Part shown: piece by piece, positions 17,204 through 21,019 of the stretch | Position numbering within the stretch: position 1 is the first letter of the stretch | How the letters are laid out: the number at the start of each line of letters is the position of its first letter | Assembly: GCA_012719235.1 (NCBI GenBank) | Contig: JAAYAR010000063.1 | Location: 1 to 64,000 of the forward strand | Direction of reading: 5' to 3' | From: Clostridiales bacterium | GTDB taxonomy: Bacteria; Bacillota; Clostridia; Oscillospirales; Oscillospiraceae | Length of the DNA stretch: 64,000 nt | The notes under the pieces: model-generated | The model's database searches: none | Seen by the model: the letters and a program-made list of their open reading frames with translations, nothing else | What the model was told of the DNA's origin: nothing | Made by a program: the position numbers and the translations under genes

Positions 17204-18243
17204 ACAGAAAGATTCTCATTATCCTCTTCGCTGTCGCCGCCGTTATCGTGATCGGGCTGACCGTATTTTTCACGCTGCGCGATCCCGCTCCGGAGGATGC
17301 CGTACCGGTCGAGACGCCTTCCGTTTACGACATGAACGCCGTATATATAAACGGCAAAGCCATGACTCTCGAGGAATTGAAACCTTATTTTTCCCTGAGC
17401 GTCAACAACCTCATGTCCGAGCTCGATATTGACGAACCGGACTGGAACACCGTGTTCCTGGATACGGGCATTTCGGATTATGTCAAGAAGGACGCGCTCG
17501 AAATATTGAGGTTGTACGCGGCAATTGAGAAAAAGGCTGCCGAACTGAAAACCACACTGTCCGACGAAGAACTTAAGAAGCTTGATTCCTGGCATAAAGA
17601 CGCGGTGAGCAAACTGGGCAGCGAGGAGGCCTACGAAACATACCTGCTTGAAAACCGGATGACCGAAGCCGCGTACAAGCACATTTACGCCGTCAATTTA
17701 CTGTACAAGCATCTGTACGACTATTATTACGGTGAAGAGGGCGCGGCCGTGCCCACGCAGGAGGAGACGGACGCATGGGGCGACGCGAACAAACTTTATC
17801 ACATAAAACACATCTTTCTCGCCACGCAGGACAATGAGGGCAACCCTATTGACGCTGACGACAAGGAACTGCAGCTCGCCCTTGCGAAAAACCTCGAAAA
17901 ACGCATTATGGAGGGAGAGGATTTCGACCGGCTGTCGATAGAGTACAGCAGCGACGGGGGCCTGAAAAACGAGTATTTGTTCCTGGACGAAGCGGAAGAA
18001 ACGTTTCGCGACGCTCTTTCGGCGCTTGAGGTCGGCTCGGTGAGCGGCATCATAGAGTCTGATTACGGGTATCACATACTGAAGCGGGAGCCGCTCGACG
18101 TCAGATACGTACTTGACAATTATCCGCAGATCGTGACAGACAGTTTCAACGAGCTTATCTCGCAGTGGACAAAGGACGTTGAGATACATACCACCGACGT
18201 TTTTGACGGCTTCGACGTGTCGGTGCTCTATATCGAAAAATGA
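17200..18243 (+). CDS. Membrane-anchored parvulin-type peptidyl-prolyl isomerase
   Basis: A 347-aa protein with one N-terminal membrane helix (about 4-26) and no lipobox Cys, so it is a signal-anchored exported protein rather than a PrsA-type lipoprotein. A SurA/PrsA-like helical chaperone part spans about 45-190. The parvulin domain (about 200-310) runs from YHIKHIFLAT to GYHILKREP. It probably helps fold secreted proteins outside the membrane. The start is ATG 17200, overlapping the mfd stop (ATGA) with GGAGGAG upstream. The frame is open further upstream inside mfd, but the family begins at MNRK. Confidence 0.88.
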   Translation: MNRKILIILFAVAAVIVIGLTVFFTLRDPAPEDAVPVETPSVYDMNAVYINGKAMTLEELKPYFSLSVNNLMSELDIDEPDWNTVFLDTGISDYVKKDALEILRLYAAIEKKAAELKTTLSDEELKKLDSWHKDAVSKLGSEEAYETYLLENRMTEAAYKHIYAVNLLYKHLYDYYYGEEGAAVPTQEETDAWGDANKLYHIKHIFLATQDNEGNPIDADDKELQLALAKNLEKRIMEGEDFDRLSIEYSSDGGLKNEYLFLDEAEETFRDALSALEVGSVSGIIESDYGYHILKREPLDVRYVLDNYPQIVTDSFNELISQWTKDVEIHTTDVFDGFDVSVLYIEK

Positions 18244-18321
18244 TTTTGCGGGCATAAAGCCCTCCGGCATGAGGACATAATATAGTCGTGAAAAATCCTG
18301 ATCCGCTCGGAAATATATTAC

Positions 18322-18350
18322 TTTACAACAGCTAAGTCCTGTGCTAGAAT
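18322..18350 (+). promoter_or_regulatory. Promoter of rpsO
   Basis: TTTACA (18322-18327), a 17-nt spacer and TAGAAT (18345-18350) give a near-consensus promoter with a start expected near 18357. This leaves a leader of about 100 nt before rpsO. Confidence 0.75.
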
Positions 18351-18352
18351 CT

Positions 18353-18459
18353 ATGGGCTAACTATGCGAACCGGCGCCCGGCATGCGGAGATACGCCGAC
18401 AGGCGAATTCACCTGGCCCATGCTCAGCGCCCGGAGATTAAAAGAAAGGTGAAACCAGT
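18353..18459 (+). promoter_or_regulatory. Structured leader of rpsO, possible S15 autoregulatory element
   Basis: The leader has internal complementarity: CGGCG near 18373 with CGCCG near 18395, and ATGGGC (18353-18358) with GCCCAT near 18417. S15 represses its own mRNA through structured leaders in several bacteria, so a regulatory role is plausible. The 5' arm of the longest pairing falls partly upstream of the predicted start site, which weakens the case. Confidence 0.35.
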
Positions 18460-18726
18460 ATGCTTCTAAAAGAAGAAAAAACCGCAGTCATCGAGCAAAA
18501 CCGCACTCATGAGAGTGACACCGGTTCCCCCGAGGTCCAGATCGCGATCCTCACTGAACGTATTACGCGCCTTACCGAGCATCTTAAGGTCCATCACGGC
18601 GACGATCATTCCCGCCGCGGCCTGTTTAAGATGGTGGGAAAGAGACGTAATCTCCTGGACTACTTAGCAAAAAAAGACATCAACCGCTACAGAGAGTGCA
18701 TCGCGAAACTCGGAATACGTAAATAA
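18460..18726 (+). CDS. rpsO: 30S ribosomal protein S15
   Basis: An 88-aa protein of exact family length, with the signature [16 protein letters not shown] at about residues 20-35 and the C-terminal [13 protein letters not shown]15 binds the 16S rRNA central-domain three-way junction early in 30S assembly. AGAAAGGTG precedes the ATG. It has its own promoter and precedes pnp, the same gene order as in many bacteria. Confidence 0.98.
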
Positions 18727-18734
18727 AAAACAGC

Positions 18735-18769
18735 TGCGTCCGGTGTCGGCAGTGCCGGTACCGGACGCA
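18735..18769 (+). promoter_or_regulatory. First stem-loop in the rpsO-pnp gap
   Basis: TGCGTCCGGT (18735-18744) pairs perfectly with ACCGGACGCA (18760-18769), and CGGC (18747-18750) with GCCG (18754-18757) forms an inner stem. No T run follows on the plus strand, so it is unlikely to be a simple intrinsic terminator. An RNA-processing site is more likely. Confidence 0.6.
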
Positions 18770-18795
18770 AACACGTAAAAGGGATTGACGGCATT

Positions 18796-18846
18796 TTTAG
18801 CAGTTGAAACTGCGCTCGATTTTCGAACCCGGTTTCAAATGCTAAA
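18796..18846 (+). promoter_or_regulatory. Second stem-loop in the pnp leader
   Basis: The 15-nt arm at 18796-18810 (TTTAGCAGTTGAAAC) pairs with 18832-18846 (GTTTCAAATGCTAAA) at 14 of 15 positions, and an inner TCGA-TTT-TCGA hairpin sits at 18816-18826. It ends 35 nt before the pnp start. A long double-stranded pnp leader is what RNase III cuts in E. coli; the parallel here is inference. Confidence 0.6.
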
Positions 18847-18880
18847 CTGCCGCTGTCCCGGATTCAGAAAGGACAAGATA

Positions 18881-21019
18881 ATGAAACGCAAAGAATACCC
18901 CGGTCACAGAATTTTCGAAACCGAATTTGCCGGCCGGAAACTGACTATCGAGACAGGAAAGCTCGCCGAACTCGCAAACGCATCCTGCACCGTCCGCTAT
19001 GGCGACACGATGGTACTGGCAACCGCAACCGCTTCCGACCTGCCAAGAGAGGGTATAGATTATTTCCCTCTCACTGTGGACTTTGAAGAGAAGCTTTATG
19101 CCGTGGGGCGTATACCGGGCTCTTTCCTGCGAAGAGAAGGCCGCCCCTCTCTGAGAGCCGTGCTTGCCTCCCGTCTCATCGACCGGCCAATGCGCCCGCT
19201 TTTTGACAGTTATCTCAGAAATGACGTTGTTGTGAACACCACAGTGCTGTCGGTCGATCCAGACTGTCTGCCCGAGATCCCCGCAATGATCGGCGCGTCG
19301 TGCGCGGTCGCCATCTCGGATATTCCCTGGAACGGCCCGATCGCCGGCTGCTTTTGCGGCTACGTCGACGGGGAACTGGTCCTGAACCCAGATAAAGAGC
19401 AAAGAAGCCGTTCCCAGATGCAGATCACTACCGCTTCTACCGCCGAGAAGGTAGTAATGATCGAGACGGAAGCCAACGAAGTCCCCGAAGAGATAATTTA
19501 TGACGGCATCATGCTCGCTCACGAGGAATCAAAAAAGATCGTACGGTTCATAAACGAAATCGTCAGCCAGGTCGGTAAGCCTAAGTTCTCGTTTGTCAGA
19601 GGTTCGATCGACCCGGACATGCTCGAAGAAATAAAGGATTACTGCCTCGACAGGATCCGCTACGCGCTTGATACGGATGACAAGAACGTTCGTGAAGAGC
19701 GGTTGACCCCGATCAAGGTAGACTTGATCGAAAAATTCGAGGGAAAATACCCCGACATCAGGATGCTGATGGACGAATTGATGTACAAGCTTCAAAAAGT
19801 CGTCGTGCGCAAATGGCTTCTTGAGGGTAAACGCGTTGACGGACGGGCAATGGACGAGATCAGGCCTCTCGACGCGGAGGTCGGCGTTGTCCCCAGAGTC
19901 CACGGCTCGGGCCTTTTCACACGCGGTCAAACTCAGGTCCTCTCGATCGCCACTCTCGATACGGTCGATGCCGCCCAGAAGCTCGACACGATCTGGGAAG
20001 AGCAGTCGAAGCGTTATATGCACCACTATAATTTCCCCGCATATTCGACTGGCGAGGCGCGCGGCTCACGCAGCACGAGCAGGCGCGAATACGGCCACGG
20101 CGCGCTGGCAGAGAAAGCCCTCGTGCCTGTCCTCCCGCCGATGGAGGTCTTTCCGTATACGATCCGGGTAGTCTCCGAGGTCCTCTCCTCGAACGGCTCC
20201 ACCTCCCAGGGCTCCATCTGCGGTTCGACACTGGCGCTGATGGATGCGGGTGTTCCCATCAGCGCCCCCGTTGCTGGTATTTCCTGCGGCCTCATAGACA
20301 ACGACGACGAGTGGACCACCTTCATCGACATTCAGGGCGTGGAAGATTTCCACGGCGACATGGACTTTAAGGTCGCCGGCACCAAAAAAGGCGTCACCGC
20401 AATCCAGATGGATCTAAAAAACGACGGCCTGACCGGCGAGATCATCAAATCCGCCCTTGAAATCACACGGGATGCGCGCTATAAGATCCTGGACGAGGTG
20501 ATGCTCCCCTGCATAGCCGAACCGCGCAAAGAGGTGTCGCAGTACGCGCCGAAAATGATCACCATGAAGATCGACGTGGAAAAGATCCGTGAAGTTATCG
20601 GCTCGGGCGGGAAGACGATCCAGAAGATCGTGGCCGACACCGGAGCAAAAATTGACATTGAAGACGACGGCAGCGTATACATCTCCTCCGTGGACCTGAG
20701 CGCGTGCCAGGCGGCAAAGCAGGCTATCGAGAACATCGTATTCGTTCCTGAGGTCGGAAAACTGTACCACGGCAAAGTCGTGCGCGTCATTCCGATAGGG
20801 GCGTTCGTGGAACTCGTACCGGGCAAGGACGGGATGGTCCACATTTCAAAGCTTGAAAACCGCCGCGTCGAGAAGGTTGAAGACGTGCTTAACGTCGGAG
20901 ACATGACCTGGGTCAAGGTCACCGATATTGATGAGAAGGGCCGCATAAATCTCTCCAGAAAAGACGCCCTCCGGGACATGAGCGCAGCGGGCTCCAAAGG
21001 ACCCATCCAGAGCCGCTGA
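18881..21019 (+). CDS. pnp: Polyribonucleotide nucleotidyltransferase (PNPase)
   Basis: A 712-aa protein with two RNase PH-like domains, a KH domain (IREVIGSGGKTIQKIVADTG) and a C-terminal S1 domain (GKLYHGKVVRVIPIGAFVEL to GRINLSRKDAL). It degrades RNA 3'-to-5' using phosphate and acts in mRNA turnover and quality control. I use ATG 18881, preceded by AGAAAGGA; an upstream in-frame start at 18785 would lie inside the leader stem-loop. The two leader hairpins suggest autoregulation. It converges on the htrA-like gene. Confidence 0.97.
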   Translation: MKRKEYPGHRIFETEFAGRKLTIETGKLAELANASCTVRYGDTMVLATATASDLPREGIDYFPLTVDFEEKLYAVGRIPGSFLRREGRPSLRAVLASRLIDRPMRPLFDSYLRNDVVVNTTVLSVDPDCLPEIPAMIGASCAVAISDIPWNGPIAGCFCGYVDGELVLNPDKEQRSRSQMQITTASTAEKVVMIETEANEVPEEIIYDGIMLAHEESKKIVRFINEIVSQVGKPKFSFVRGSIDPDMLEEIKDYCLDRIRYALDTDDKNVREERLTPIKVDLIEKFEGKYPDIRMLMDELMYKLQKVVVRKWLLEGKRVDGRAMDEIRPLDAEVGVVPRVHGSGLFTRGQTQVLSIATLDTVDAAQKLDTIWEEQSKRYMHHYNFPAYSTGEARGSRSTSRREYGHGALAEKALVPVLPPMEVFPYTIRVVSEVLSSNGSTSQGSICGSTLALMDAGVPISAPVAGISCGLIDNDDEWTTFIDIQGVEDFHGDMDFKVAGTKKGVTAIQMDLKNDGLTGEIIKSALEITRDARYKILDEVMLPCIAEPRKEVSQYAPKMITMKIDVEKIREVIGSGGKTIQKIVADTGAKIDIEDDGSVYISSVDLSACQAAKQAIENIVFVPEVGKLYHGKVVRVIPIGAFVELVPGKDGMVHISKLENRRVEKVEDVLNVGDMTWVKVTDIDEKGRINLSRKDALRDMSAAGSKGPIQSR

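Follow-up and report, generated by a model that had tools for sequence, protein, structure and literature searches.

A predicted RNA hairpin upstream of pnp in gut Clostridia suggests an off-switch that PNPase could work on its own message

The rpsO and pnp genes lie next to each other on the forward strand of the window, the 64,000-nt stretch of Clostridiales bacterium DNA (contig JAAYAR010000063.1) that was analysed here. The gap of 154 nt between them contains two predicted hairpins, designated hairpin 1 and hairpin 2, and the Shine-Dalgarno (SD) region of pnp. The features of the locus are as follows.

18460–18726, + strand: rpsO (ribosomal protein S15), the upstream gene of the pair; an open reading frame whose protein finds the rpsO genes of relatives by tblastn
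18735–18769, + strand: hairpin 1, with 16 predicted pairs including G-U and a 3-nt loop, without a T tail and variable in relatives (fold)
18781–18859, + strand: hairpin 2, the conserved pnp leader element, composed of basal stem, core and apical stem-loop (fold; models R1 and R2)
18781–18793, + strand: 5' strand of the hairpin 2 basal stem, predicted to rival the SD for the 3' strand (fold)
18798–18808, + strand: 5' arm of the core, UAGCAGUUGAA, near invariant (conservation, alignment)
18803, + strand: purine-purine mismatch in the core, G versus A at 18839 (fold, alignment A1)
18834–18844, + strand: 3' arm of the core, UUCAAAUGCUA (consensus UUCAAGUGCUA; conservation, alignment)
18854–18858, + strand: anti-SD segment UGUCC, with four of its five bases forming basal-stem pairs when the predicted fold is intact (complementarity, fold)
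18868–18875, + strand: SD region of pnp, AAAGGACA (complementarity, fold)
18881–21016, + strand: pnp (PNPase), the coding part from the ATG used here (open reading frame)

The gap region (18700–18880) has a predicted folding energy of -69.7 kcal/mol, compared with -46.8 kcal/mol (sd 4.4) for shuffled sequences (z -5.20), and none of 200 shuffles was as stable, which bears out the claim of a first-pass annotation of this DNA that two strong hairpins occupy the rpsO-pnp gap. That annotation gave the extent of the element as 18735–18846, which takes in both hairpins but ends too early: hairpin 2, with 32 predicted pairs, extends to 18859, and an end at 18846 loses its basal stem, in which 18781–18793 pairs with 18848–18859. 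Two models of the element, R1 and R2, both match 18776–18864, their source alignments including this locus. The SD region of pnp begins 8 nt past hairpin 2, and the GGACA within it (18871–18875) is the complement of the UGUCC at 18854–18858. The pnp reading frame is open 5' of the ATG (18785–18880) as far as a TTG at 18785, within hairpin 2, and automatic annotation could therefore put the start wrongly.

The region upstream of rpsO has features of its own. A sigma-70-like promoter, TTTACA-17-TAGAAT, whose second hexamer is preceded by TG, lies at 18322–18350, and its TTTACA and TG..TA boxes recur among aligned relatives. The rpsO leader at 18357–18459, which is conserved in an alignment of 21 relatives with arms of the GCUUAGUUUCGGGA ... 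CCCGAUACUCAGC type, gave no Rfam match at E ≤5 and is possibly an S15 autoregulatory leader.

From these sequences, it is scarcely to be expected that the rpsO-pnp gap contains a transcription terminator or attenuator. Support for one comes from the first hairpin: a hairpin of -10 kcal/mol or lower precedes hairpin 2 in 79 of 92 leaders, at a median distance of 5 nt from the rpsO stop codon, and at least four T residues occur in the next 8 nt in 19 of these 79 cases (at least five in 6 of them). The first-pass annotation held that neither hairpin of the window is a T-tailed terminator, and this is confirmed, as no T run follows either one; hairpin 2 ends beside the SD. An intrinsic terminator or attenuator was rejected on the grounds that no T tail directly follows either G+C-rich stem. 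A consensus scan listed one terminator-like match on the forward strand, a 5-pair sub-hairpin at 18800–18813 within hairpin 2, and the number of such matches in the region was at chance level (two on both strands, compared with 1.0, sd 1.1, in shuffles). Hairpin 1 is common but variable, and its role is perhaps protection of the rpsO 3' end.

The conservation of hairpin 2 was explored in pnp loci of the same family. A PNPase search of 200 same-family genomes matched 176, and the leader set was drawn from the best 111 of these matches, minus one at a contig edge; of the resulting 110 loci, L094 had no pnp start, leaving 109 for analysis, the window included. The core, UAGCAGUUGAA...UUCAAGUGCUA with at most two changes per arm, was present in 92 of the 109 loci. 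Among the remaining 17 of this best-match set, which were read by eye, 12 had a recognisable core variant, and several of these variants carried either two-sided changes that preserve pairing (e.g., UUCGCGUUUGAA with UUCAAGUGCGAA) or a long loop insert. The element was doubtful in L105, and no recognisable element was seen by eye in four loci (L007, L048, L073, and L088); L007 has the top PNPase score outside the genus. The rpsO-pnp gap of L007 (genome G018) contains a different long inverted repeat around AATGGGAAG. Long apical-loop inserts in hairpin 2 were observed in L070, L078, and L092, both core arms being retained, as if the apical loop were tolerant of insertion.

Two alignments were used to assess pairing. 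A1 contains 78 rows selected for the core and a short loop, a selection that favours the core pairs and leaves the apical pairs unaffected, while A2 contains 50 rows and adds other families and core variants. Pairing was found in 95.8% of the cells of A1, compared with 82.9% in shuffled and 28.6–47.6% in slid controls, and in 93.8% of the cells of A2. The covariation score was 0.386 in A1 (0.137 shuffled, 0.055–0.101 slid) and 0.505 in A2 (0.170 shuffled, 0.063–0.152 slid). The count of pairs changed on both sides discriminates little (11 of 18 in A1 versus 7–9 slid; 13 of 19 in A2 versus 8–11), and 10 of 500 shuffles in each alignment reached the observed number of further pair types; it is the percentage of paired cells and the covariation score that carry the case for covariation. 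By these two measures, the predicted pairing of hairpin 2 is supported by covariation.

The association of the element with pnp emerged from searches of genomes. When the core pattern was scanned across the genome collection, taking no account of genes, it yielded at least 118 loci, and among the matches listed, 115 were at rpsO/pnp: 111 between the two genes and four adjoining one of them, with the other out of reach or unplaced by the rule applied. The three listed matches found elsewhere (L145, L162, and L221) came from Flavobacteriaceae, Lactobacillus, and Chitinophagales. At E ≤0.001, model R1 had matches in 17 of the 245 class genomes; one of these was the window's own, and the best R1 locus in all 16 of the other genomes lay between rpsO and pnp. 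Model R2, which was built with most of the R1 class loci, had matches at E ≤0.01 in 42 of the 291 class genomes and 69 of the 147 order genomes, and at E ≤0.001 in 3 of 299 genomes in the phylum, all three being from the same order. Sixty of the further R2 matches were examined. A script placed 54 of them upstream of pnp; three shortened by contig ends (L261, L267, and L271) carry both rpsO and pnp, and three others (L299–L301, E 0.0024–0.0075) lie away from pnp and are probably chance matches. Because the large scans were strictly filtered, class genomes without a match may still carry divergent copies. The element was found in further families of the class besides its own, and its named carriers include Flavonifractor plautii ATCC 29863 (L203) and Papillibacter cinnamivorans DSM 12816 (L222). 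By these searches, many gut Clostridia carry a conserved RNA hairpin upstream of pnp. Within the window's own genome, the core pattern and R1 found this locus alone, except for the reverse-strand shadow of R1. A repeated or mobile element was rejected, since one own-genome locus plus the reverse-strand shadow was obtained at E ≤10, with 150 of 431 first-look candidates scored. The first-pass annotation had proposed conservation of the pairing in near relatives as a check on its reading, and hairpin 2, being conserved, covarying and tied to pnp, passes it.

Control of pnp by its own product is a textbook case in E. coli, and to our knowledge little is known of how PNPase autocontrol works outside that species. 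At the E. coli rpsO-pnp leader, as Jarrige is said to have described in 2001, RNase III cuts and PNPase degrades the duplex. The present locus resembles that leader in its rpsO-pnp gene order, in the hairpins within the gap, and in the long stem before the pnp SD; hairpin 2 occupies part of the rpsO-pnp gap, on the 5' side of the SD, and provides a long, evolutionarily maintained double-stranded stem. The processing logic is likely shared. The E. coli leader is unlike hairpin 2: it has no conserved core, nor does the 3' strand of its stem contain a strong anti-SD. A search for homology with R2, run without filters on the K-12 rpsO-pnp region (L323), gave a best E value of 1.6. Hairpin 2 may function like the E. 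coli circuit, yet by model R2 it is no homologue of the E. coli leader. The first-pass annotation had envisaged a double-hairpin pnp leader and a circuit similar to those of E. coli. A conserved, covarying and pnp-linked hairpin 2 is what stands of that proposal; hairpin 1 is variable in sequence, which leaves a single hairpin, and not a pair, as the conserved unit, and the model finds no match in the E. coli leader.

Other pnp leaders offer further points of comparison. The window gave no Rfam match, and none was found in 18200–19000 at E ≤5. Actino-pnp RNA lies in pnp leaders. Its Rfam family (RF01688) is named for pnp and is classed as cis-regulatory in a table of the report concerned (PMC2864571). 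Actino-pnp differs in belonging to Actinomycetales, and its model finds nothing at this locus; the best score in the genome was 20.3 bits, on a different contig, relative to a gathering score of 47.7 bits. Membership of an Rfam family, RF01688 included, was rejected for want of a match at the locus. In Streptomyces coelicolor, RNase III is described in passages of one report as cutting an rpsO-pnp intergenic hairpin, and the arrangement given there, with one hairpin close to rpsO and another near pnp, resembles the one seen here (PMC5872136). The first hairpin in those passages is a terminator accompanied by an intergenic promoter (PMC5872136), and consensus scans find neither at this locus; no T tail follows 18769, the T tail being the single criterion applied for a Streptomyces-type terminator. 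For Streptococcus pyogenes, parts of another report give an RNase III site in the pnp 5' UTR and suggest E. coli-like retro-regulation (PMC6431027). This Gram-positive pnp leader is likened to hairpin 2 by its description alone, and the same parts of the report mention no anti-SD (PMC6431027). The element is not described in the literature covered, chiefly freely available main texts and including a term search within PMC2864571, PMC8040213, PMC7247131, and PMC11109978.

What is new here is that two partners, the 5' strand of the basal stem and the SD of pnp, are each complementary to the stem's 3' strand, and that the match to the SD covaries; in the same-genus relative L003, for example, CUUUUCC lies opposite GGAAAAG. 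This relationship was assessed in 140 non-redundant leaders out of 164 (92 from the family search and 72 from the pattern scan, among the matches listed). The duplex of the 3' strand with its own SD-to-start segment averaged -10.44 kcal/mol, compared with -8.06 kcal/mol (sd 0.18) when segments were swapped among leaders, a difference reached in 0 of 10,000 permutations, and -5.81 kcal/mol for shuffled strands. The 5' strand, used as a control, had no such effect in the same 140 leaders (own -6.83, swapped -6.69, sd 0.16). A count of perfect runs in the 92 leaders gave 4.74 for own and 4.22 for swapped segments (0 of 5000), while the longest perfect anti-SD run was three or fewer in 21 of the 92, some leaders being almost without one. 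When each leader was compared with its three nearest relatives having a different SD, the match to its own SD was stronger in 98 cases and weaker in 41, and with one nearest neighbour these numbers were 80 and 35. The possibility that any leader would by chance complement the SD that follows it was rejected, rpsO starts at 135 of the same loci serving as the null (z 0.5). Of the anti-SD bases, 82% fall within the basal stem, compared with a 60% background. From 65 loci considered in other families, 24 were dropped for having no start/SD or core by simple rules and three as near duplicates; the remaining 38 leaders gave -9.29 for own and -7.19 for swapped segments (0 of 5000). Other families of the same order contributed 23 of these (z -4.8, 0 of 5000), and the signal outside the order comes from the other 15 (z -3.8, 1 of 5000). 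The nearest-relative and other-family comparisons reduce the scope for shared ancestry as the source of the SD match. Across these sequences, the complementarity of the 3' strand to the SD covaries.

A passive processing or stability hairpin, which would separate the rpsO and pnp mRNAs or shield the 5' end of pnp mRNA with no feedback, would be compatible with a conserved hairpin inside an operon gap for which the consensus scan lists no promoter-like site. Such a hairpin is improbable, as it explains neither the anti-SD covariation nor the restriction of the element to pnp. Two features absent from the first-pass annotation, the basal stem and the anti-SD pairing that competes with it, point to translational control, beyond the E. 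coli scheme alone.

Folding models illustrate how the two pairings might compete. For the 140 leaders, the models expect 1.39 pairs joining the 3' strand or spacer to the SD/start region when the leader is intact and 6.76 once the 5' strand is removed, with a gain of at least two pairs in 110 leaders and a loss of at least two in one. Leaders with swapped SDs also gained pairs (0.88 to 4.39), indicating that only part of the gain is specific. With alternative cut points, 95–117 of the 140 leaders had at least three anti-SD pairs. A fall in SD accessibility on truncation was the initial prediction, to which pair counting was added as a second, later test, and this fall was weak: upon removal of the 5' half, mean accessibility shifted from 0.45 to 0.39 (0.448 to 0.423 in chimeras), with a drop of more than 0.3 in 17 of 140 leaders and an increase of more than 0.3 in five. 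That the mean hardly changes reflects an SD that is often paired elsewhere in the models regardless. The window's own leader gave 0.05 expected pairs intact and 0.12 after the standard cut. With a cut at or after the 3' core, it gave 5.3–5.9 pairs if the fold ended 3 or 15 nt from the start codon's first base; with 33 nt from that base folded, it gave 0.04–5.3 pairs. In these models the window's leader is therefore borderline for the switch, depending on how much coding sequence is included in the fold.

The weak mean shift in accessibility would also fit decay-only control as in E. coli, in which an RNase III cut and the removal of the 5' fragment by PNPase would be followed by mRNA decay, the anti-SD being irrelevant. 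The shared gene order and the long stem before pnp agree with such control, and passages of one report state that RNase III cuts the E. coli pnp leader and that the cut destabilises pnp mRNA (PMC8708148). Decay alone gives no reason why the basal 3' strand should covary specifically with the SD. No SD complement of that strength occurs in the E. coli leader, whose best 14-nt duplex (-6.9) lies outside the 3' strand of the stem. Decay-only control is an unlikely account of hairpin 2.

The reading preferred here, which is given about an even chance, is that hairpin 2 is a conserved cis-acting pnp leader and a two-state translational switch, most likely triggered by RNase III cutting and PNPase trimming. 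In the intact hairpin, the basal 3' strand would be held by the 5' strand, leaving the SD unblocked. By analogy with known leaders, RNase III would cut the long stem, and PNPase would then degrade the released 5' piece in the 3'-to-5' direction. With the 5' strand gone, the 3' strand could pair with the SD and start codon, turning pnp translation off; PNPase, by releasing the anti-SD in this way, would limit its own synthesis. The stem length of hairpin 2 suffices for RNase III, of which long stems are the typical substrate, and an RNase III gene is present in the genome (TIGR02191, 251.5 bits). It is from the stem length, the encoded RNase III and the cutting of pnp leaders reported for E. 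coli and S. coelicolor and suggested for S. pyogenes that we infer a cut-then-trim switch and its direction of control, the enzymatic steps being modelled on those systems.

The main rival to this switch is that PNPase, by way of its KH/S1 domains, or some other RNA-binding protein would bind the mismatch core and shift the balance of pairing without cutting. It is the main rival because the core sequence is conserved beyond what the cutting of double-stranded RNA alone would need: columns 23–33 and 72–82 of A1 are 94–100% conserved, apart from 86% and 82% at the mismatch, although these figures are inflated by the selection of rows with at most two changes per arm. The mismatch position itself (28/77) is purine-purine in 68 of the 78 rows (G.G in 53, G.A in 13, A.G in 2), U.G in nine and G-C in one. 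The competition between pairings fits such putative recognition equally well. A median of 15 predicted basal pairs outside the 11-position core is typical of an RNase III substrate and counts against binding without cutting, which is possible but somewhat doubtful.

The presence of a hairpin strand able to cover the pnp ribosome-binding site suggests a built-in off-switch that PNPase could work on its own message. More tentatively, the Clostridia may possess a family of nuclease-set translational switches, in which RNase III would open the hairpin, PNPase would erase the 5' strand, the 3' strand would become an anti-SD, and the mismatch core would serve as the site of recognition or cutting. 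If this is true, an exonuclease would be both the sensor and the switch of its own translation, and RNA decay would be tied directly to translation of the decay enzyme. The element offers a defined, searchable RNA family in gut bacteria, together with a concrete and testable mechanism in which the 5' strand would restrain the anti-SD.
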